20,617 nt of DNA from a virus: positions 1-20,617 of the IMG/VR virus record IMGVR_UViG_3300042197_000630. One strand, given 5' to 3'. The position numbers were made by a program, and so were the translations under genes. The notes under the pieces were generated by a model. That model was given only the letters and a program-made list of their open reading frames with translations, was not told the origin of the DNA and did no database searches. Numbering within the stretch: the stretch's first letter is position 1; every line of letters begins with the position of its first letter. This document shows positions 2,091-20,247 of this stretch, in pieces.

Positions 2091-3832
2091 TGCAGCTAAT
2101 ACGCCGCAATCGCAATCCATCATTGCGTGTAACACGGCAAATACCTAATGTCGAAAAGATACGTGTTAGAGAAGCAAGAGAGTTTAAGGGCGGGTTGAAT
2201 ACATTCGACACGCCTCTTAATCTATCCACACGCTTCATCATTGAATGCCGCAATCTATATCCAGATACTAATGGCCGTTTGCGTCTGCGGTATGGTACAT
2301 CTGTGTTTGCAGATGTGACAGGTGTACTTGATGAAATCATTGCAATGGAGTATTACAACACGGGGATTATTGCTGTTGGTAAGAACGGCAAGATTGTCAG
2401 CATCAATGCATCAGGTGTTGCTACGTTGCGTTGGGATGCTACCATCGCAGATAATAGCGTAGCACCTAGTGGCAATAACTCACCTAGTGGCTGGTCAACA
2501 GGCTTGACCTTCGCAAGCTTCACACAGTTTGCAGGTGATCTAATCATTTGCAATGGTGTGGATAAGCCGTTGCGTATGCAGCCAAACTATGCCTGCACGT
2601 ATCTGTATGACGCAGGTACTGCAAGCAATGTGAATGTGCCGATTGCAAAGTTTTGCACCACATGCAACAATTATCTAATCCTTGCAAACACAACAACAGA
2701 TAAAACTACTTTGTACATCGGTATGAAGGCTGTGGCAGGCACATTTGTTGGTGATCCTGGTGTTGATAATGATGCAGTCAATTTCGTAACTAATACGTAT
2801 GTTAATCGTGGCAGTCCTGACATTACAGGTATTGCGGCATTTCGTGATACACTGATTGTATCATTCAACGAAACGCTGCTTGCAATCAAGCTAGGTACAT
2901 ACGACACATCAGGCAACCATCCTGCGCATATTCCTGATGTTGAAGATGTGATTGAAAATCATGGCAGTGTCAGCCATCGCTGCCTTGTGCCGCTTGGTGA
3001 TGATATTCTGCTGCTTGATCAGGCTGGCATGGCCGGGGTACAACGTGCAGCATTGACCGCTAAGCTGTCACCCACACGCGAAAGCACATTAATTGGCACA
3101 GACTTGCAGCAATCACTAGCACCATTTACGCAAGCACAGCTAGAGCAGCATGTGTTCGCCATACATGATCGCATTGCACAGCACATCATGTTCTTTGTGC
3201 CTAAGAGCGATACCGTAGCAGTGAACACTGACAACAATGTGTTCGTGTACTGCTTTGATCGTGCGCTGAAGTTTAATGCATGGGCGTACTTTGATCAGAT
3301 GGCGTATCGTTGTGGTTGTCGTACAGCCGAAGGACGCATCTTCCTTGCACAAGGTGTGAAGGTGTTCTTCTACCACAATCAATACAATCCATTGTACAAT
3401 GATTACTCAATCGGTGGTACACAAACATGGGACACTGGCCAGTTGTGGGATGATAACACTGGTTGGGAAGAGTTGTCAAACGCAGTTGGTGTGCCGATAC
3501 CATACACGTTTGCTACGCCATGGTCAGATATGCGCACTACGGGTATGTTGAAGTATTCTAAGTACGCATCAGTTATATGTGAAGGCAACGGCACGTTCTC
3601 ATTGCAAATGTTTGTGGATGATTTCTTGCAGCCAGAGTTGTCTATGCAGTTTCAAATGACGGAAATCCCTGCTAATACCAACGTCGCAACACGCCCTGCA
3701 AACAATGCACAGCTATACGCATGGCCAGCTAAGTTTAACTCTATGCGCCTGCGTGTAACTGGTGAAAGCAATGCGTACATCGCATTTGTTGGTTTGCAAA
3801 TGTATTACATCACTGGCTCCATCAGGAGATAA
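2090..3832 (+). CDS. Tail nozzle / tail tubular B-like protein (580 aa)
   Basis: The start is placed at 2090 because the ATG overlaps the upstream stop (TAATG) and has GGGAGGAA at 2077-2084 as its ribosome site; an earlier in-frame GTG-like extension inside the previous gene has no such site. Near the N-terminus the protein has EFKGGLNTFDTPLNL followed by CRNLYPDTNGRLRLRYGTSVF (about residues 33-72), the 'Nxxxxx-G-x-LxxRxGT' pattern common at the start of podovirus nozzle and P22-like tail-plug proteins. The rest is beta-rich with repeated short strands and few charged helices, consistent with a beta-propeller-like nozzle. Its place between adaptor and tailspike supports a role in closing and extending the short tail. 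A generic tail protein of another type is possible. Confidence 0.6.
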   Translation: MQLIRRNRNPSLRVTRQIPNVEKIRVREAREFKGGLNTFDTPLNLSTRFIIECRNLYPDTNGRLRLRYGTSVFADVTGVLDEIIAMEYYNTGIIAVGKNGKIVSINASGVATLRWDATIADNSVAPSGNNSPSGWSTGLTFASFTQFAGDLIICNGVDKPLRMQPNYACTYLYDAGTASNVNVPIAKFCTTCNNYLILANTTTDKTTLYIGMKAVAGTFVGDPGVDNDAVNFVTNTYVNRGSPDITGIAAFRDTLIVSFNETLLAIKLGTYDTSGNHPAHIPDVEDVIENHGSVSHRCLVPLGDDILLLDQAGMAGVQRAALTAKLSPTRESTLIGTDLQQSLAPFTQAQLEQHVFAIHDRIAQHIMFFVPKSDTVAVNTDNNVFVYCFDRALKFNAWAYFDQMAYRCGCRTAEGRIFLAQGVKVFFYHNQYNPLYNDYSIGGTQTWDTGQLWDDNTGWEELSNAVGVPIPYTFATPWSDMRTTGMLKYSKYASVICEGNGTFSLQMFVDDFLQPELSMQFQMTEIPANTNVATRPANNAQLYAWPAKFNSMRLRVTGESNAYIAFVGLQMYYITGSIRR

Positions 3833-6214: not shown

Positions 6215-6679
6215 ATGTCAATACGTATCCGCACTTACAAACATAGCAATGACTACTCGCGGGTGCTATTGTTGTCTGAGTTGATGTATAATGAGAGTAA
6301 ATACACGCATAAACCATTCATGCGTGAAGCAGTGTATGAGTTTTTGGAGAGAATTGATAATAACACGCTCATTGGTTACGTTGCTGAGCATAATGAGCGT
6401 GGTATTATCGGATTTATTGGCTTAACACAGATGCCATACATATTTACTGGTGGCTTCTTTGTACATGACCTGGCATTTTATGTAATGCCAGAGATGCGTC
6501 ACACATTAGCGTTCGCAGCATTGCTTCGTGCGGCTGAGGACTACGCTAAAAGTGGTGGTGCAGATGCAGTAGTGCTTGGCATTACTGCTCCACATGATGT
6601 TTCTCGCGTAGCACGTGCTTATCATAAGCGCGGTTACAAAACATTCGGTGCATTCATGCGCAAGGAGTTGACACAATGA
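6215..6679 (+). CDS. GNAT-family N-acetyltransferase (154 aa)
   Basis: The length and strand-helix order fit a single GNAT domain: an N-terminal strand and helices (residues 1-47), paired strands GYVAEH and GIIGFIGL (54-70), strand 4 FVHDLAFYVMP (82-92), the acetyl-CoA helix MRHTLAFAALLRAAEDYAK (94-112), strand 5 ADAVVLGIT, and a final helix and strand (ARAYHKRGYKTFGAFMRKEL). The family transfers acetyl groups from acetyl-CoA to amines; the substrate is unknown. The usual Q/R-x-x-G-x-G/A pyrophosphate loop is degenerate here, with R95 kept but Leu and Phe where Gly is expected. No clear Shine-Dalgarno precedes the ATG. The gene has its own strong sigma-70 promoter inside a late block, yet overlaps the next gene by ATGA. 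Confidence 0.82.
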   Translation: MSIRIRTYKHSNDYSRVLLLSELMYNESKYTHKPFMREAVYEFLERIDNNTLIGYVAEHNERGIIGFIGLTQMPYIFTGGFFVHDLAFYVMPEMRHTLAFAALLRAAEDYAKSGGADAVVLGITAPHDVSRVARAYHKRGYKTFGAFMRKELTQ

Positions 6680-12500: not shown

Positions 12501-13572
12501 TGCTGCTGGTGCGTTTCGTTTCTATTGGAACAGTGATGATCCTGAAAGCAGCATTCGTGTACCCATTGAACAGTCATTCGCACCGTTCTTTAGCGCTGTA
12601 TTGGGGTCAATTCAAGCTGGTTTTGATGTAGATAACCCTGATTTCTTCACAGAACGCTATGCACCGCTGCGTGATAGCCTGCATAGGCTCATTGAGGATG
12701 GGAATGATCAGCGTATGCGCGCGTCATTTGGCTTAGCGGGTGCTGATATACCGATGCTTGGCGCAGTTGATGCAGCTTCACGCATGATTACTGGCAGCAC
12801 AGTAGAGGATGCTATGTCATTTGCTACTGGTCCACGTATTGCACCTGATCGCAGCACTAAATCGCTTGATCGTCTAATGATGAATAACGATGTAAGCGAT
12901 AGATACACTGCAACAGTGTTGCAGACTGCACTAGGCTATGGGGGCGAAGCATTGCTGGACCTATGGCGCACGTTTGGTATTGTGCAACGTACTGAGGGGA
13001 CTGCGGCTGCTGCAAAAGCAACGCTTGGGCAGTACGGTGCGAACATTACTGGTGGTGCGCGTATCGTAGGTCCAGCAATGTTCGGCCAAGAACGCAGAAT
13101 GCGCAGTAATGACGTTGTTGGTGAAACAATCCTAGCTATGGAGCAGAAGTTAGACACTATCACACGCAATCTAGGGCAGATACGTGGTGGTGAAGGCACG
13201 ATTGGCCCATCTACACGCTTGCGTGAACCGGAGTTTGGTGGTGGACGTGCTGGTGTTCCAGAAGATATGCAGCCAGTGTTGCTACAGCTTGCGCAATTCA
13301 ATTCACAGATTAGTAAGATACAGCAACAACGCAAGGATAAGCTAGAAGAATTGCGCACATTGAATAGTTCGCCAATTCTTCGTGCTAATCCTGGCGAGTT
13401 GCGCACCAAGACTAATCAGGTAGCGCAAGAAGTGCGTGAGATAAACGCACAGATATACCAAGCTATGTTGAGTGTTGAAGCTGATCTATCTGATGATACA
13501 GGGCGGCGTGTGCGCATTGCTGACATTGATCCGATGAAGGGCCTTGATCAGTTTCCGCGCATACATCGCTAA
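9568..13572 (+). CDS. Giant internal virion / DNA ejection protein (1334 aa)
   Basis: The largest protein in the window and the last of the late block, in the place of the large ejection proteins of podoviruses (T7 gp16-type in role). No lysozyme or transglycosylase motif is visible at the N-terminus. Instead it begins with a repeated short motif DPFADIV (residues 5-11 and 18-24), with DPFNDIV at 211-217. Hydrophobic segments lie at about 231-248 (VLPWVVGGLAIASVGAAM), 652-680 (PIGFLLGNLQAPASMAMGAV) and 933-952 (AVRTAMFATMATTAMLQSAV). The rest is helical. The segment YRQINNALLDYGHKMGIWST (about 467-486), followed by KNPNYMHRMI, resembles helical regions of large polyvalent phage proteins. The C-terminus (1240-1268) is a coiled coil. 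Its stop overlaps the stop of the opposing operon. Confidence 0.78.
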   Translation: MSGSDPFADIVSAPQQNDPFADIVQPRRRVTSGGIIGNIPGMSIAMDVARGFTGAVPDIAGLAGYLSGSEGLTDWSKRANTFLDQNIAQRAEFKDDPVRAFIQTAGPALIPLGGPVASTASTANRIVRMLPTRLQQTPGVAGTIGGVVRAGEIALPGSAPYTAGNIALNAGAGAALSYGAEQLGDAAEEARLARINPPRTTSVVAPEPPADPFNDIVPPGQKSWYETAQDVLPWVVGGLAIASVGAAMRFQSRFAQKQLDAANPTALTQPGTPDAMQPMTGVIEGIENGLFNQYTVLNNRIDERVREGVITRQEGDSIMGTVITHANEAVNSDVLREVWDTGLFPGGTKTIPPSEVAYRASLLRGQNVDPRTSRDDFTRFNDMLAAMDELDLRKSNLDNTKTVRDPVTGHYKQVSDPIWRTDPLTGKQVKGEPRRSALSDIDDATLKQRVAEGMQSPQVVKIVDEYRQINNALLDYGHKMGIWSTKEVADMRAKNPNYMHRMIADLVLERNQRAGLSPIVSAMEGNSPLTNRNRAENAGPDRYQDAMMNMQDGIGQTLDFIRRNEALKSVANNLSSTFPNSAAKPVSGIGRVLVDRPGVQPNKGYIPVPFRDHNGTRYILELDPTISQGLLPYPRAFVPIANGARMLEQKLTTGPIGFLLGNLQAPASMAMGAVAALINAPPHLRIGILDKWIQNSTGISPRKFGIVDPTFFAQVLSAPLRDLWDLRGQVLGNALQRSLDKNGFIANQLGPVRAQAMADAFKRSYEASDLHRMKSEGLIAQGLSYAMEGQGLTGFAAQMRNLAQNNPEYAKVMNYGGFAPDITKVRSLEQFREYAAVKGARITPITMRKIWQGYSKFLDLVANAPQSAIYRANKGRNDRGTIGFARSVTGDPSQYGNYRIVQGVLSMVPYGNIMVQGAHQPVKAFKREPAAFAVRTAMFATMATTAMLQSAVDADERAIAEGKPPKSVAHLLTRDSRDAAGAFRFYWNSDDPESSIRVPIEQSFAPFFSAVLGSIQAGFDVDNPDFFTERYAPLRDSLHRLIEDGNDQRMRASFGLAGADIPMLGAVDAASRMITGSTVEDAMSFATGPRIAPDRSTKSLDRLMMNNDVSDRYTATVLQTALGYGGEALLDLWRTFGIVQRTEGTAAAAKATLGQYGANITGGARIVGPAMFGQERRMRSNDVVGETILAMEQKLDTITRNLGQIRGGEGTIGPSTRLREPEFGGGRAGVPEDMQPVLLQLAQFNSQISKIQQQRKDKLEELRTLNSSPILRANPGELRTKTNQVAQEVREINAQIYQAMLSVEADLSDDTGRRVRIADIDPMKGLDQFPRIHR

Positions 13573-14816
13573 ACATCAGTTAGCTTCTCAAGCATCAGTG
13601 AGTTAAGATTGCGCGCTAGTATTCGGTTAGTAGCGCGCCACACTGTTTTGCGCCTGCCCTGTGTTGCTACGTCAAAGCGCTGCACCATTTCCATTTCATG
13701 CATGATAGCTAATGCGTACTCCAATTCACGTGTCTTTAAGTGTCTGCGTGTTTTGAATAGTACTTCGCTTTGACCAATGCCCAATTCACCAGCTTCTAGC
13801 AACACAGTACGCAGCTTGTCTATGCCATTCGTCATGCGCATGGCTTCTTTGTTTGCACCGAATAAATCTGCTGCTGCTGCTTTATTATGCTGAATGATCT
13901 TAATCGCATGATTGATGTGGTGTGCATCAATCATCCAGCTTTCATCATTAGCACTGAGCAATGCTGCTAGGCGCAGTATGTGATGATCCTCTCTAGCTTC
14001 AAACGATGCAATGAATGGATCATTCGCATCGCCATCGCGTCGTTGCTCATACCACCGCACGAACCTAGCTTTAGCGTTCTCAGTTAGATTGATCCCACGC
14101 TTGGACCAATTCTCTGCTTGTGTACGCAGTGAGCGTAGTTGTTCCGCTAATGCATCAACATTGTTGTCCTGTTCCTCTGGCCATGCTACAAGTCTCTTGC
14201 GCTTCTCTTCAATGATGAAGAGACAACGGCTAGTAAAGCCACCTTCGATTACATCAGGATTGATTGCGCGCACTAACCAGCTAGGTGTGGATGCTGCTGC
14301 AAAGGTGAGATACACGTTGCGAACGCTTGTCTTATCAGTTGACATACGGCTGTATTCACGCAATTCAGGACAGTCATACAGGTCTGTCAGCATACCTGGC
14401 ATTGCGATGGCATACTGCTCTTTGCCCAGGAATGTGACTAACTCACTGACAAGTATTGCACATGATGCAGCATCGTGTGTCTGTGTATGCAGTGCTAACT
14501 GTTCACGCAGCTTCTCTGGTGTGATGTTTCCAGTCACTGTAACGATATCATTGTGAAATCCTGCCGCACGAAATACACGTTCGCACATGCGGATAGCAGT
14601 TGACTTGCGTGTGGTTCCTGCTTCTGCACACAGTACAACATACAAGTTCAGGAACACAGGCGCATTAGGCCGCCGCACAATCATGCGACGGCCAATAGCG
14701 TTGCTGATTAACCACATTCCACACCAGAAGTCATATCCTACTGGTGTTTCTAATGGACTCATGTACTGCAAATACTTGTCCAGAAACGTACCCTCTTTTA
14801 CGGCTTCACGATACAT
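13569..14816 (-). CDS. DUF3987-like replicative P-loop ATPase (415 aa)
   Basis: Start placed at the ATG at 14816, with GGAG at 14826-14829; an in-frame GTG at 14840 lacks a ribosome site. Residues 58-74 (LYVVLCAEAGTTRKSTA) are a P-loop in which the usual Gly before Lys is Arg (GTTRKST, residues 67-73). A hydrophobic strand ending in acid (AILVSELVTFL, 120-130) would be Walker B, and GGFTSRCLFII (192-202) fits an arginine-finger segment. This set is typical of DUF3987-type phage proteins, thought to act as helicase or helicase-primase-associated ATPases in replication. The C-terminal 80 residues (IGQSEVLFKTRRHLKTRELE and after) look like a winged-helix DNA-binding domain. It is the last gene of the replication operon. 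Confidence 0.72.
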   Translation of the reverse strand: MYREAVKEGTFLDKYLQYMSPLETPVGYDFWCGMWLISNAIGRRMIVRRPNAPVFLNLYVVLCAEAGTTRKSTAIRMCERVFRAAGFHNDIVTVTGNITPEKLREQLALHTQTHDAASCAILVSELVTFLGKEQYAIAMPGMLTDLYDCPELREYSRMSTDKTSVRNVYLTFAAASTPSWLVRAINPDVIEGGFTSRCLFIIEEKRKRLVAWPEEQDNNVDALAEQLRSLRTQAENWSKRGINLTENAKARFVRWYEQRRDGDANDPFIASFEAREDHHILRLAALLSANDESWMIDAHHINHAIKIIQHNKAAAADLFGANKEAMRMTNGIDKLRTVLLEAGELGIGQSEVLFKTRRHLKTRELEYALAIMHEMEMVQRFDVATQGRRKTVWRATNRILARNLNSLMLEKLTDV

Positions 14817-15055
14817 TTTGTTTGTCTCCGCCGATTGCACAAACTGTGTGCTAGTTGCAGATTGTTGAACCTGTTTGTGCCACCTAATGCTACGGGTATG
14901 ATGTGATCTATGTGTGCATCCTCATACTCCATAGCACTGCCACATAGTGCGCAGTCACCGCCTTGTGCCGCATATAGCTTTGCTTTAATGCCTCTGCGTT
15001 CACTAGCTTTGATGTAGCGTGTACCTTGTTTGCTGCTTGGCGATCTCTTAGGCAT
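14798..15055 (-). CDS. HNH endonuclease (85 aa)
   Basis: A compact HNH domain fills most of the protein: CALC zinc knuckle (C35, C38), the beta-alpha-metal core H48-I-D50-H51 with P54 and GG58-59, N61, then NNLQLAHSLCN (64-74) containing H70 and C73. This is the McrA/5-methylcytosine-type HNH layout. A basic N-terminus (MPKRSPSSKQGTRYIKASER) may bind DNA. HNH proteins cut DNA using one divalent metal; in phages they act as homing endonucleases or in genome packaging. Its ATG overlaps the polymerase C-terminal gene's stop by 8 bases, and its end overlaps the next gene. Sitting beside a split polymerase gene it may be a homing enzyme, but that is inference. Confidence 0.87.
   Translation of the reverse strand: MPKRSPSSKQGTRYIKASERRGIKAKLYAAQGGDCALCGSAMEYEDAHIDHIIPVALGGTNRFNNLQLAHSLCNRRRQTKCIVKP
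14826..14829 (-). promoter_or_regulatory. Ribosome site that decides the DUF3987-like start
   Basis: GGAG, nine bases before the ATG at 14816. It lies inside the HNH coding region, so ATPase translation begins 19 bases before the HNH stop. The upstream in-frame GTG at 14840 has no purine-rich site. Confidence 0.6.
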
Positions 15056-15881
15056 CGAATTTCAGCTTCTTCATGTTAGACCAGCGATGCATACCTTGTT
15101 CATCCGCATAGCTGACTTTGAAATCTGCGGGGATGATCAATGGTTCACCGTGGATGATCAATGGACTCTCGGCGTACTTGCGCATAATCTTCGCTACGCG
15201 TTGCACATCACGCTCTCTGCACAATGCAGTGAGACTGTCATGGTTATTAAACGGTATTCTTGCATAGCGCGGCCATTGATCATCCTCTTGTGCTTTGTAT
15301 TGTACACTGCATACGAAGTCACCTAGTGTTGACTGCGGCTTGAATGCAATGATGCTGTCGAGCAAGTCCTCGTCAATACGACTACCTGGAAACTCCATGC
15401 GCCTTCCTAGGCATGTCCACAATTCACGATGCTTGTACACTTCATCAATGATCACCTTCCACCATATCTTTAGTTCTGGTGTTGCACGATGGTAAGCGGC
15501 ATAGGCAAGTTCAGCATCCTTAATGGACAAGCCAGTGGTCGCCGCAAGTCTAGCAGCTTGCATTCGGTAGTTAAGCCCATGTCTGCATCGCTTACTAATG
15601 GCTCTAAGACTAAGGCTGCCGACAGGGTGTTCGGGTGTTGCGTTGGTGCTATCGTAATAGTCAAACTTAGGGACACTATCATATGGCACCTTGAACATTT
15701 CACTGGCAAGTGCGATGTGAGCATCGTATGATCCTGGGTTGAGTCTTGCACGTTCGAATTGATCCTTCCATTTGATGATCTTCGCTTCCCATCCTACGAT
15801 GCGCGCTTCTGCTTGTGCGCCATCGAAGTACACATAGACTAAGCTTTCTTCTCTGGACCGTTTAATTGCGGGAGTTGCCAT
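15048..15881 (-). CDS. DNA polymerase I, C-terminal catalytic half (277 aa)
   Basis: The start at 15881 (MATPAIKR) is chosen because AGAGG lies seven bases upstream; the frame stays open further upstream only as a shadow of the preceding gene. The protein carries the rest of a family A polymerase: motif A YVYFDGAQAEARIVG with D20, Q23, E25 and R27; motif B R93-x3-K97-x7-Y105; the LWTCLGRRMEFPG turn (155-166); QSTLGDFV (183-190), which matches the QGxAAD block; and motif C HDS (214-216), where the usual Glu is Ser but the catalytic Asp is kept. It lacks everything before motif A, which is in the 560-aa gene upstream. The two products presumably bind each other to form one enzyme that copies phage DNA. 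Confidence 0.9.
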   Translation of the reverse strand: MATPAIKRSREESLVYVYFDGAQAEARIVGWEAKIIKWKDQFERARLNPGSYDAHIALASEMFKVPYDSVPKFDYYDSTNATPEHPVGSLSLRAISKRCRHGLNYRMQAARLAATTGLSIKDAELAYAAYHRATPELKIWWKVIIDEVYKHRELWTCLGRRMEFPGSRIDEDLLDSIIAFKPQSTLGDFVCSVQYKAQEDDQWPRYARIPFNNHDSLTALCRERDVQRVAKIMRKYAESPLIIHGEPLIIPADFKVSYADEQGMHRWSNMKKLKFDA

Positions 15882-16135
15882 GCTTCTACCTCTTTTTCCT
15901 CTACTGGTGGTGGTTCTTTGGGATGCTGTATTTCTACACCAAACATAAACAATCGTTGCGTTGGCTCGTATCGCCCCACACGCATAGCAGTCATGTTGAT
16001 GTACTGCGCTAAGATGCGCCACGAACGCCAATCCACCATGATTGCGTTTAGTTGCACATCTAATGCCGCTGCATCATCTTTCATCCTGCTCACAAGCTGC
16101 ACAAACTTCTCTGGATTAGACAGTGCAAACCTCAT
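15839..16135 (-). CDS. Unknown protein between the polymerase halves (98 aa)
   Basis: I do not recognise this family. The ATG overlaps the upstream stop (ATGA, 16132-16135), implying translational coupling. Residues about 1-60 are helical and amphipathic (MRFALSNPEKFVQLVSRMKD, then VDWRSWRILAQYINM). A short strand FMFGVEIQHP follows, and the C-terminal 28 residues are Pro/Glu/Lys-rich (KEPPPVEEKEVEAW) and probably disordered. The tail overlaps the start of the polymerase C-terminal half in another frame. There is no nuclease, zinc or P-loop motif, and no membrane segment. Its place suggests a small replication accessory factor or a bridging subunit of the split polymerase, but there is no direct evidence. 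Confidence 0.72.
   Translation of the reverse strand: MRFALSNPEKFVQLVSRMKDDAAALDVQLNAIMVDWRSWRILAQYINMTAMRVGRYEPTQRLFMFGVEIQHPKEPPPVEEKEVEAWQLPQLNGPEKKA
15889..15893 (-). promoter_or_regulatory. Ribosome site that decides the polymerase C-half start
   Basis: AGAGG, seven bases before the ATG at 15881 on the - strand. It lies within the 98-aa gene, whose end overlaps the polymerase half by 43 bases. It shows that the C-terminal half has its own translation start. Confidence 0.65.
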
Positions 16136-16347
16136 GGCAAGCCCTTTGCATACTCAATCATTTCTTCATACGTCATGCCTTTATACGCTGCCGACTTCTC
16201 CATGTACGCGATCATGCGTTCCTCTGCTAAATCGCGTGACTTGCTACGTGCTTTGATCTTCACCCATTCAGTGTGTATATCTAAGCCACGCTCACTAGCC
16301 GTTGTGTATGGTGTGAGAGGAATGATATGTGTTTTCTGTCTGATCAT
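16132..16347 (-). CDS. Unknown small protein between the polymerase halves (71 aa)
   Basis: I do not recognise this family. It starts and ends with four-base ATGA overlaps with its neighbours (16344-16347 and 16132-16135), so it is very probably translated in series with them. The N-terminal 25 residues are neutral to basic (MIRQKTHIIPLTPYTTASER). The middle is Lys/Arg-rich (VKIKARSKSRDLAEER), and the end is an acidic helix (YKGMTYEEMIEYAKGLP). It is too small for a homing endonuclease and has no Cys/His cluster. A role in the replication complex is inferred from position alone. Confidence 0.68.
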   Translation of the reverse strand: MIRQKTHIIPLTPYTTASERGLDIHTEWVKIKARSKSRDLAEERMIAYMEKSAAYKGMTYEEMIEYAKGLP

Positions 16348-16679
16348 TTGATCGCTCCATACTTCTTTATCAAGATTTGATTGAGGAAAGCCGTCACGGC
16401 ATCAAAATCTTCTTGGCCTGACATTATCTTTCGCCACAATACAGGGTCTTTCTTTGCATAATTTACAAGCTTGTGCATGACTTTAGCAGCCCCTGTTAAT
16501 TGCAGCATTGTCGGTATCTTTATTGAGGACGGTAAGCCGTAGTCATCAGCAGCAATGACTGTATCTGGATGATCATTATCACGCATTGCTTTTGATAACT
16601 CGTACACTTCTTGCCACATCGCACGTGCAGCACCCTCTGCTTCGTGCGCTAGACGTTCTAGCTTTTCAATGTCAATCAT
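16344..16679 (-). CDS. Unknown helical protein after the polymerase N-terminal half (111 aa)
   Basis: I do not recognise this family. Its ATG overlaps the stop of the polymerase N-terminal gene by eight bases, and its stop overlaps the next start (ATGA). The protein is predicted almost all helical: IEKLERLAHEAEGAARAMWQ at residues 4-23, continuing through EVYELSKAMRDND, then TMLQLTGAAKVMHKLVNYAK, and a final helix FDAVTAFLNQILIKKYG. It lacks enzyme motifs, cysteines and membrane segments. A helical scaffold or accessory subunit of the polymerase would fit, but this is inference from location. Confidence 0.72.
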   Translation of the reverse strand: MIDIEKLERLAHEAEGAARAMWQEVYELSKAMRDNDHPDTVIAADDYGLPSSIKIPTMLQLTGAAKVMHKLVNYAKKDPVLWRKIMSGQEDFDAVTAFLNQILIKKYGAIK

Positions 16680-18354
16680 CGAACATCATCCTATCTGCTA
16701 TGAACATGCCTCGCAGCATTTCAGGTTGGTTTTGAAGGTTCATACCGCTGCCCCACAGTGTCTGACTACTAGACAAACGGCCAGGGACATACTGTGTTCC
16801 AAACTGTTTGTAATCACTGCGCATACGACCGTCTGCATCAATATCCGCTGTGATGTACGTGCTATACAGTTTGTGCTGTTCCTTGTATCTATTGAGTAGG
16901 ATCAGCATACGCCTAGCTGCATCGCTAGTACGCGGGTTCTCGATCATTGCTAGACGATTAGCTTCGTCTGTGCTTGCTGTCTTGCCTGTAAGTCTTAGCT
17001 GCTCAAAGAACAGCTTACCAAGTTGTTGCGACGAGTTTGGATTTGGATTGATAGTATCATCATCAACAGCCTCACGTGCTGCTGCAACAAACTCTGCACT
17101 TAGTTTGTCAACACTCGTACCAAACTCCATTTCTAGCTGCTGACGCATTGCAGCGTCAACACGATTACCTAGTACGGTAGCCGCAATCAGGTGTGGCTGC
17201 AATCGCATGACATGATCACGATAAAACTTCCACAGCTTCTGCGACTCTAACTCTTTCTCGATGCGTCGTGCGACTTCCCAAGTAATGCAAACATCCTTGA
17301 CGTTGTACTCCCAGAAGCTTGCAATGTTACCCCCTTCTTTCCATTCACTCTTCTCATTCTTATAGTAGGGGTGTGTTGTGTACTGCCCAGTGAGAAAGCC
17401 AAGATTGTGTGGCCATGTGGGATGCAGCGTGTGATGTGCAAGTAGCGTGTCAATCCACAACGGCTTTGCCTTGATACGATCTTTATACCAAAGCCACGCG
17501 CAGTCAAATCCCCCGTTTTGCGCCACAAGTTGTACACTTGCATAACGAAGCACACGCTGGATCGCACGTCTAACAGTTGCTTCATCAACCACCGACCAAC
17601 GATTATTTGACAAGCCCCGAAAGTTGATGCACATGCCCTCATTAGCGTTGTTTGCAAAGCCGATGCACGCTGTCTCATTAGCGATTACCTCTACGTCAAA
17701 CGATACTGGTTTGCCTTCTTGTATCATACGATCACACCATTGCACTGCTTCACGTGGTGAGGGATCATAGATAGGCGTGATGTTATGTTCACGCCACACA
17801 CCCCGTCGAACCATGTCTAACTTGCTAATGTCAAGCCTAAAGATTGGTTCTAGTGAAGGCTTACGCATGATGTTTGCAGGATTGTGTGCAATGATAAAGT
17901 CACGTTCTCCATCACCAACCACACTACCGCGCCATTGATCAATACCGGACTGCCCAACAATCGCTTGCAATGCAATGTCTCCAAGCACAAGTATGTGCTT
18001 GAGGTTGGGTAGTTGTGACAATTCCCATTGGAGCAGTGCATTCCAGTGTGATAATTCGCCACGTGATATTCCTTTCTTATCTCCACCTTTGGTATCTACT
18101 AGCTGACGCTTCACTACGTTAGTGATGTAAAAGTGTTGGCGATGCAAGCCAAAGCCTTTCATCACGTCCCATAGGAACCTACCTGATCCACCTACTAACG
18201 GCACTTTTAGTTGTGTTTCCCTAAACCCAGGTGCTTCACAAACAATAGCAATGCTACTGCCAAAGTTACCGTCAGCAAGGCAATCCGTAGTAAGCTGTGC
18301 AGCCTGCGCTTTGCGAATAAACTCACGGTTCAATTCTCCTACAGACTCAACCAT
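16672..18354 (-). CDS. UDG-exonuclease-DNA polymerase I, N-terminal half (560 aa)
   Basis: Residues 35-170 resemble family 4 uracil-DNA glycosylases: CEAPGFRE (39-46), VPLVGGSGRFLW (51-62), YITNVVK with N79, and AHNPAN (156-161) in place of the HPA/HPS block. Residues about 212-370 are a DnaQ-like 3'-5' proofreading exonuclease with Exo I D220-x-E222, Exo II N280-x3-D284 and Exo III Y350-x3-D354. Residues about 385-560 begin a family A polymerase: thumb helices, then GTQYVPGRLSSSQTLW (519-534), MNLQNQP (538-544) and LRGMFIAD (547-554). The gene stops six residues later, just before motif A, which lies in a separate gene 790 bases downstream. The start at 18354 has AGGAG at 18366-18370 and overlaps the kinase gene by 16 bases. 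UDG-polymerase fusions are known in SPO1-like phages. Confidence 0.9.
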   Translation of the reverse strand: MVESVGELNREFIRKAQAAQLTTDCLADGNFGSSIAIVCEAPGFRETQLKVPLVGGSGRFLWDVMKGFGLHRQHFYITNVVKRQLVDTKGGDKKGISRGELSHWNALLQWELSQLPNLKHILVLGDIALQAIVGQSGIDQWRGSVVGDGERDFIIAHNPANIMRKPSLEPIFRLDISKLDMVRRGVWREHNITPIYDPSPREAVQWCDRMIQEGKPVSFDVEVIANETACIGFANNANEGMCINFRGLSNNRWSVVDEATVRRAIQRVLRYASVQLVAQNGGFDCAWLWYKDRIKAKPLWIDTLLAHHTLHPTWPHNLGFLTGQYTTHPYYKNEKSEWKEGGNIASFWEYNVKDVCITWEVARRIEKELESQKLWKFYRDHVMRLQPHLIAATVLGNRVDAAMRQQLEMEFGTSVDKLSAEFVAAAREAVDDDTINPNPNSSQQLGKLFFEQLRLTGKTASTDEANRLAMIENPRTSDAARRMLILLNRYKEQHKLYSTYITADIDADGRMRSDYKQFGTQYVPGRLSSSQTLWGSGMNLQNQPEMLRGMFIADRMMFDD

Positions 18355-18914
18355 ATGCTGACAATCTCCTTCACCTGTTCACAGAAATGTGTGGTGCTAC
18401 TATCGTTTGACATTTCAAGGGTGCGCACACCTGGCAATTCAATGTAGCCACGACTGTCACCTGCAAAGGTTTTACCTTCACGATGCAAGCGCACTAACAA
18501 TACATTGCTGATACCAAAGTAAGGTAGCAATGGTGCAGCTTCGTAGTCAAATCCACTATCACTGCATACGAATATCTTGCTTGGTGACTTCTGTATCTCA
18601 CGCAATGCAAGCTTGCCAAACACGCGCATACCAAACTTGTCTTTGGCCCAATACTCAGACATGCTGATCTGCACATCCACATAACTGTTCTGAAACAGCA
18701 ATTCATCTGGTTCAGTTTTCTTGCTTTCGAGATACGCAACCTGTGCATCTGTAAGATTGAAGAATGCTTTAATACCATCCTTCAATGGGCGGCTCATTTT
18801 GAACCGCATTGTGTCAGGAAACGAGGACCATACATGATTAGCAGCAGTGTCTTTGCCACTGTGTCGAGGGCCATTGAACAGTATCAGCTTTTGATTAGCC
18901 AATCCGTGCAGCAT
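18339..18914 (-). CDS. dNMP kinase-like P-loop protein (191 aa)
   Basis: The start at 18914 is chosen because GGAGAG (18919-18924) lies four bases upstream; the ATG lies one base after the helicase stop. An in-frame TTG at 18926 would use no ribosome site. ILFNGPRHSGKDTAANHV (residues 11-28) is a Walker A loop of the GxxxxGKD type seen in phage deoxynucleoside monophosphate kinases such as T4 gp1. A later strand, KIFVCSDSGFDYEA, would carry the Walker B/substrate region, and VLLVRLHREGKTFAGDSRGY the lid-like basic segment. The family phosphorylates dNMPs to dNDPs to feed phage DNA synthesis. It lies between helicase and polymerase genes in one coupled operon. Substrate specificity cannot be read. 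Confidence 0.78.
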   Translation of the reverse strand: MLHGLANQKLILFNGPRHSGKDTAANHVWSSFPDTMRFKMSRPLKDGIKAFFNLTDAQVAYLESKKTEPDELLFQNSYVDVQISMSEYWAKDKFGMRVFGKLALREIQKSPSKIFVCSDSGFDYEAAPLLPYFGISNVLLVRLHREGKTFAGDSRGYIELPGVRTLEMSNDSSTTHFCEQVKEIVSIWLSL

Positions 18915-18915
18915 A

Positions 18916-20247
18916 TCACTCTCCAAAGATGCGGGGTTCTTTGATTGTCACTGACAGGGCCAAGCCCTTTGAGTCAGCAATCATTGTTACATGCTCACGC
19001 GCACGTGTGATTGCTGTGTACAGGTTCTTGCGATTAAGCAGTGTGTGATGTGACTTGTTGACCACATAAATCACATGCTTATACTCACTGCCTTGTGCCT
19101 TGTGTGTAGTCAATGCATACGCAAGATACAAGTCGTTTTGTGGATAGCCAATGCGCACTTGATTGTCCACCACAGTTTGCACAGCAGGTGGAATAGAGCA
19201 TATGCGATCCTCGAAGTCAACGACAATCTCATGCAGGTCAGTGATTTCGATAACCTTACCTACCTCACCATTGAACACACCATTGGTGCCGTTGTTGCAT
19301 TCAAGGTCGTACCAATTCTTAGCCATCACAACCTTGTCACCAACACCAACACGAATAGGCGGATCGTACACCTTACCATTGTATGACCTACGCGGTACAT
19401 CAATAGTCACACGATCATCTGGCATCAGCAGCATTTGCAGCAGCGCATTAAGCTTGTGTGTACCTACCCATGACTTGTTGCCAGGGGTGAGTATTTGATT
19501 ACGCAAGCTGGTGAAGTCAGACTTCTGCAATGCATTGATCCATTCAGGATGCAATGACTCTGCAATAACTTCTACTGGCCGATCAGTGATGATCAAGTCA
19601 AAGTCAGGCAGACGTTGTGGTGAGCTGCCTTTCAACACACGCTGCGCATTAGTCAGAATACCACTATCACCTGTCTGCCTATGCACACGATCAAGACGAA
19701 TGCCATCGAAGCGCTTGAGCAAGTCATTGAATGCAGTTGGTTTAGCTGCTAGTGCAGAGTTGCTTTCAATAGGTGGAAGCTGCGACTCGTCACCGAATGC
19801 AAGCAGCCTGCATCCTGCGGGAAATGCATCAAGCAAGTTGCGATGCAATTCTTGATTGACCATTGCGTATTCATCAGCAATAACCGTATCGTATTCGATA
19901 GGCTTCTCACGTGTCCTGCGCGGTACAGTTACACCATACGGCTTACCAGTGCGCGGATTGATTTCACGCGGTGCTGTGTATTGCAGCAGCATGTGAATGG
20001 TCATAGCAGGTGCGCCGGTTGCTTCACGAATACGGCGCGCAGCTTTACCAGTTGGTGCTGCAAGCACTGGATTGTAGCCATTCTCTACTAGCTTCTCATA
20101 GATTGTGCGCATGATCGTTGTCTTGCCACTGCCAGCAGGGCCAGTGACTGCGACAATTCTGCGTGACACATCTAGCGCACGTTCGACTGCAAGCTTCTGC
20201 TTCTCGTCAAACTGATCTAGTGTGATTGGTGTAGCTGCTTCTGACAT
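18916..20247 (-). CDS. RecD/Dda-like SF1B DNA helicase (443 aa)
   Basis: All main SF1 motifs are visible: motif I GPAGSGKTT (36-44), motif Ia LAAPTGKAARR (62-72), motif II DEYAM (125-129), motif III FGDESQLPPI (151-160), motif IV-like DRVHRQ (186-191), a beta-barrel-like insertion (about 280-360, starting VTIDVPRRSYNGKVYDPPIR), motif V TTHKAQGSEY (380-389) and motif VI LYTAITRAR (409-417). This is the arrangement of 5'-3' SF1B enzymes such as RecD2 and T4 Dda, which unwind DNA at replication forks or during recombination. The length equals a Dda-sized core without the N-terminal RecD2 extension. AAGGA lies seven bases before the ATG. The gene begins 10 bases after the ribbon-helix-helix gene ends. 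Confidence 0.93.
   Translation of the reverse strand: MSEAATPITLDQFDEKQKLAVERALDVSRRIVAVTGPAGSGKTTIMRTIYEKLVENGYNPVLAAPTGKAARRIREATGAPAMTIHMLLQYTAPREINPRTGKPYGVTVPRRTREKPIEYDTVIADEYAMVNQELHRNLLDAFPAGCRLLAFGDESQLPPIESNSALAAKPTAFNDLLKRFDGIRLDRVHRQTGDSGILTNAQRVLKGSSPQRLPDFDLIITDRPVEVIAESLHPEWINALQKSDFTSLRNQILTPGNKSWVGTHKLNALLQMLLMPDDRVTIDVPRRSYNGKVYDPPIRVGVGDKVVMAKNWYDLECNNGTNGVFNGEVGKVIEITDLHEIVVDFEDRICSIPPAVQTVVDNQVRIGYPQNDLYLAYALTTHKAQGSEYKHVIYVVNKSHHTLLNRKNLYTAITRAREHVTMIADSKGLALSVTIKEPRIFGE
18919..18924 (-). promoter_or_regulatory. Ribosome site that decides the dNMP kinase start
   Basis: GGAGAG immediately before the helicase stop TGA (18916-18918), four bases from the ATG at 18914. It overlaps the last helicase codons, so the two genes are translationally linked. 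Confidence 0.7.

Follow-up and report, generated by a model that had tools for sequence, protein, structure and literature searches.

Phage DNA polymerases encoded by two genes are already known. In the T4-related Aeromonas phages 25 and 44RR, gene 43 is split into 43A and 43B. The two proteins of phage 25 co-purify and are active as a polymerase (PMC2988022); in the literature consulted, this is the one split phage polymerase for which both association and activity are shown. Jumbo phages have a split PolIII-like enzyme (PMC7824862) and, in the case of MIJ3, a split PolB with an intein (PMC6892783). Among the family A enzymes, the polymerase of the OM43 phages MEP401 and MEP402 (Zobellviridae) is split, for which the authors proposed an intron (PMC10580990). 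A uracil-DNA glycosylase (UDG) domain and a split family A polymerase occur together in Vibrio phage VS-ABTNL-3 (MF497422), in which an unrelated gene separates a UDG–exonuclease–polymerase N-gene from the C-gene (PVS_29/PVS_28/PVS_27). The SPO1-type polymerase, exemplified by that of Bacillus phage Goe26, also unites UDG-like, exonuclease and family A domains, and its gene is interrupted, some 35 aa before motif A, by an intron that contains an HNH ORF. In Goe26 (L235) the HNH-bearing intron (2440–3520) interrupts the polymerase gene after GRLSSENPK, and the record annotates separate genes. Another break is seen in Caulobacter phage Kuura (L007), where two small genes lie between Kuura_029 (UDG and exonuclease) and Kuura_026 (polymerase domain).

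The window analysed here is the whole 20,617-nucleotide stretch of IMG/VR virus record IMGVR_UViG_3300042197_000630. A six-frame PF00476 scan of this 20.6 kb virus contig found a family A polymerase in exactly two pieces, both exceeding the cut-off; each half was matched once (profile 5–148 and 149–357), the matches abutting at 148/149. The pieces belong to a minus-strand operon of overlapping genes that runs from a helicase to a DUF3987/primase-like gene and in which neighbours overlap by 4–43 nt (Table 1), and Shine–Dalgarno-like sequences are present upstream of the N-half and of the C-half. An earlier note on this DNA had described genes of 560 and 277 aa, 790 nt apart and broken just before motif A, with each Pol I block present once and none lost; the ORF coordinates confirm the former and the two abutting profile matches bear out the latter.

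Table 1. Features of the polymerase operon, in nucleotide positions of the window.
Feature	Position	Strand	Remarks
RecD-like helicase	18916–20247	(-)	Operon with polymerase halves
dNMP kinase	18339–18926	(-)	Same operon as polymerase halves
Polymerase N-half, 560 aa	16672–18354	(-)	UDG-like + 3'-5' exonuclease + thumb + first palm part
Slot between halves, 790 nt, holding small genes	15882–16671	(-)	Length and content vary among close subgroups
Slot ORF111	16344–16679	(-)	ATG overlaps N-half stop by 8 nt
Slot ORF71	16132–16347	(-)	Relatives in slots of L008–L011
Slot ORF98	15839–16135	(-)	Overlaps C-half start by 43 nt
Polymerase C-half, 277 aa	15048–15881	(-)	ATG at 15881; rest of palm + fingers
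HNH endonuclease, 85 aa	14798–15055	(-)	Overlaps C-half stop by 8 nt
DUF3987/primase-like gene	13569–14840	(-)	Same operon as polymerase halves

By Pfam, the N-half comprises a UDG domain (aa 29–168; 2e-15), an exonuclease (aa 211–370; 7e-8) and DNA_pol_A positions 5–147, and the C-half comprises DNA_pol_A positions 151–357. The N-half ends with NLQNQPEMLRGMFIADRMMFDD and a stop codon, its LRGMFIAD being followed by the short tail RMMFDD, and the C-half opens with a short head that leads into motif A, YVYFDGAQAEAR. Three small overlapping ORFs lie between the N-half stop and the C-half start. Within the C-half, motif A provides D20, motif B R93, K97, H101 and Y105, and motif C H214 and D215. 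D20, R93, K97, Y105 and D215 are invariant across the family, as is the His–Asp pair of motif C, and all invariant residues of motifs A, B and C are kept. GRLSS and NLQNQP are located in the N-half and not in the C-half; GRLSS and NLQN are palm-side elements of family A polymerases. With these elements in one chain and motifs A, B and C in the other, neither protein has a complete polymerase site. The DNA_pol_A domain and the three motifs identify the pair as a predicted family A DNA polymerase. Where Escherichia coli Pol I has Phe762, the window and the family alignments have His throughout (RHGLNY; C-half aa 101), and motif C of the family reads HDS or HDA, not HDE. A viral PolA survey retained only F, L or Y at position 762 (PMC9069017), so that a group with RHGLNY would have been filtered out of it.

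Modelled alone with AlphaFold, the C-half yields a pLDDT of 92.7 and a pTM of 0.87, and the best PDB matches of the model are family A polymerases (Taq/KlenTaq derivatives, Bst, Klenow and Pol theta); the C-half by itself is predicted with confidence to fold as palm and fingers. The single-chain relative L087 was modelled as well (pLDDT 91.8), and there the break corresponds to the turn that leads from helix 549–554 to the motif A strand 561–568. L087, the nearest single-chain relative, reads GMFIAD-PK-YVYVYFDGAQAEAR across the junction; in the split relatives this turn alone is replaced, by the short tail and head.

Relatives were retrieved from IMG/VR with each half, and the reading frame over the junction was then inspected. 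Whether they have one gene or two, as the earlier note had asked, varies: among 91 non-redundant loci that include the two parts, 81 have them in one ORF, and ten, the window included, are split. The split loci are all close to the window (58–93% in the N-half), are cut at the identical site, after GMFIA[DP], and in every case retain both halves together, with 110, 206, 275, 279, 395, 435, 453, 570 or 790 nt from the N stop to the start of the C alignment. The direct homologues of the window's pair form a single-gene UDG–exonuclease–polymerase family of uncultured phages, with one ORF where the window has two, and the nearest of them (L087, L095 and others) are 57–65% identical over the N-half. 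In the records of four split relatives (44.7, 42.3, 42.0 and 42.6 kb; completeness unrated) neither a second family A polymerase nor PolIII alpha was found; in a PolB search the control itself gave no match, so that the negative covers family A and PolIII alpha. A DNA-level search of annotated phages returned no match. Two conserved ORFs, no second family A polymerase or PolIII alpha in the four records, and single-gene sisters together point to a split two-gene polymerase by sequence criteria. Both halves are under strong purifying selection: dN/dS is about 0.07–0.13 for the N-half against close split relatives and about 0.05–0.13 for the C-half among them, with 0.05–0.06 for the C-half of the window; some pairs were saturated.

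The split appears to have arisen recently within an otherwise one-piece enzyme family. In the N-half tree the split loci and the fused L087 fall together, with 100% support, inside a family whose other members are single genes, and L087 pairs with the split L086 with 99% support. Since a fused gene lies inside the split clade, re-fusion, repeated splitting or recombination must be part of its history. Monophyly of the split loci is rejected by the AU test for the N-half (p 0.014) and not for the C-half (p 0.37), and the L087/L086 pairing and the N-half result both speak against a single clean origin. Recombination is suggested by the end of the N-half of L086, where about 40 aa are 98% identical to L012 while the remaining N-half is far more diverged, and by the tails (ADRM.FD[DE]) and heads (EE[SQ]L) common to split relatives. 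We read these data as one origin with recombination or re-fusion; two origins are possible.

Compared with the described systems, the window is closest in its break to MEP401 and MEP402, in which an exonuclease and polymerase N-part, a small unknown ORF and a C-part follow one another and the break falls at the same point, between ...LFLSRYGE and motif A. Unlike the window, these phages are without a UDG domain, and their polymerases belong to a distant family A clade with the single-gene sisters HTVC033P and HMO-2011, so that their split is independent in origin. A broad tree joins the split polymerases of MEP401 and the Alcaligenes phage to HTVC033P and HMO-2011 (100%) and that of the Vibrio phage to the single-gene L004/L005 (100%), from which it follows that this part of the gene was broken on at least three occasions; at least one further phage lineage acquired a very similar split on its own. 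Every MEP401 relative with both halves in the fetched locus is also split, with a variable gap of -17 to 635 nt. In MEP401-type loci (L197, L199, L200, L211, L217 and others) the overlap between the halves may be 1 or 17 nt, so that no intron would fit there, an argument against the one proposed (PMC10580990); in Alcaligenes phage vB_Af_QDWS535 (L232) the break is closely similar in position and the halves overlap by 1 nt. VS-ABTNL-3 shares the layout of the window, but its break lies about 20 residues earlier, just past NLQN.P, it is 27% identical, and its grouping with single-gene relatives marks a separate event; a viral scan with its C-half gave no match. Gene 43A/43B resembles the window in that a phage replicative polymerase consists of two proteins, but belongs to family B and is interrupted by a seg homing endonuclease or untranslated sequence, and the SPO1-type gene, similar in domains, differs in the nature and position of its interruption. 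The earlier note knew of no enzyme with this domain set and break point. The break has its precedent in MEP401/402, and the union of UDG with a split polymerase in VS-ABTNL-3; what does seem to be new is the UDG domain set with the MEP401-type break, along with the independent origin nested among single-gene relatives, the gene turnover in the slot and the evidence against the published intron idea.

Across the split relatives the slot between the halves ranges from 110 to 790 nt and has held about ten mutually unrelated small ORFs. Relatives of the three in the window (111, 71 and 98 aa) are confined to the slots of some near neighbours: ORF111, which has no Pfam or PHROG match, is restricted to the window phage and to L075/L076, a nearly identical contig, ORF71 shows purifying selection (dN/dS 0.05 in comparison with L010), and ORF98 has a 35% identical relative in the slot of L012. 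The slots of L012, L014, L016, L017, L018 and L086 contain other small ORFs, mostly unrelated to those of the window. In most split relatives the ATG of the first slot ORF sits within the last N-half codons. On the other side, an HNH gene adjoins the C-half in part of the split clade. It was absent from this place in the split L016–L018 and L086 and in the fused relatives tested, and as a strict marker of the split it was ruled out by these four split loci. The HNH gene of the window is a candidate homing endonuclease, of which the polymerase gene might be the target.

We consider it highly probable (about 0.86) that the window encodes a family A replicative polymerase consisting of two polypeptides that assemble into one enzyme, for which we infer separate translation, association and activity. 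The N-subunit would supply the UDG-like domain, the proofreading exonuclease, the thumb and the first part of the palm, and the C-subunit would supply the motif A strand, the fingers and motifs B and C, and hence both metal-binding aspartates. As the cut lies in the turn between the LRGMFIAD helix and the motif A strand, the two chains would have to re-form the palm jointly. The split would have originated within a single-chain enzyme family, and the cut would then have acted as a slot that took in small phage genes and allowed their exchange. This reading is the best supported because the tests for an assembly error, an intron and a second polymerase all came back negative, the RNA scan being weakly sensitive and the PolB control giving no match. 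The two-subunit enzyme of the earlier note comes through these tests with the correction that the palm, assigned there to the C-half, is common to both halves. Judged from its sequence, the pair is most likely a real, well-conserved, two-subunit polymerase.

The best surviving alternative, itself improbable, is that the gene is decaying while a host or other polymerase replicates the phage, or that one half has acquired a new role on its own. Lone polymerase proteins of the size of the C-half (298–334 aa) are found among viral predicted structures, and the motif-2 His of UDG aligns with Asn in the window. Decay is, however, hard to reconcile with the retention of both halves in every split relative, the low dN/dS and the presence of every active-site residue, and a solo role with the division of the palm elements between the chains, neither of which holds a complete site.

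Even less probable is a self-splicing intron in the gap, from which a single polypeptide would result in the manner of the SPO1-type group I intron. Group I introns do occur in the polymerase genes of phages, the SPO1-like example lying not far upstream of motif A, an HNH gene adjoins the C-half, and the MEP401 authors invoked an intron for their split gene (PMC10580990). However, the gap contains no group I (RF00028) or group II match in Rfam even at E<=10, in a scan of weak sensitivity, the SPO1-like control intron scoring RF00028 at 16.6 bits (E 0.17) and being missed at the gathering threshold. The turnover of the gap content is the stronger argument: the contents are non-homologous among relatives and come down to 110 nt. 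Purifying selection on ORF71, the divergent coding tails and heads that splicing would need to drop, and the overlapping halves of the MEP401-type relatives and the Alcaligenes phage all argue in the same direction.

A sequencing or assembly artefact, which might be suspected in a metagenome contig, is barely credible given the same cut in many independent contigs with differing gap lengths and intact long overlapping ORFs. Ligation of the halves by a split intein, as reported with the split PolB of MIJ3 (PMC6892783), or their joining by a programmed frameshift or bypass has a negligible chance of being correct, as the N tail of 6 aa and the C head of about 15 aa fall short of what intein halves require and a frameshift site would not stretch over 790 nt that include three genes and stops.

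The UDG-like domain (window 17851–18270) can be placed in the UDG superfamily by its predicted fold and motif 1, its EAPG aligning with motif 1 of solved type-4 UDG/UdgX. In the alignment to UdgX, the motif-2 His (HP[SA]) of type-4 UDG/UdgX aligns with Asn here, and N158-P159 hardly varies within the family; HP is kept in some other phage UDG-polymerases (L004, L005 and Kuura). Of the fusion to a uracil-DNA glycosylase claimed earlier, the fold stands; the name is best taken as a fold assignment only, which gives no ground for assuming activity.

Close relatives here differ in whether the polymerase chain is broken directly before the active-site strand, and an independent lineage is broken at the same point. 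The set amounts to a clean natural experiment, which argues that a break there is tolerated without splicing and bears on the open intron question in OM43 phages. Naturally evolved two-part polymerases are also possible starting points for split-enzyme tools. A broader proposal, tentative and rather unlikely to hold as a whole, is that family A polymerases of phages break recurrently at the turn before motif A. The broken turn would then be inherited as a slot in which small genes of the replication operon are swapped, and recombination would spread the split allele, in keeping with the likeness of the L086 junction to that of L012. One conceivable advantage is that a split gene shields the conserved motif A DNA against a homing endonuclease, for which the adjacent HNH is an example. 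Elsewhere in the window, the majority of the plus-strand proteins scanned were without a PHROG match, and a GNAT-type acetyltransferase gene is situated at 6215–6679, amid structural genes.
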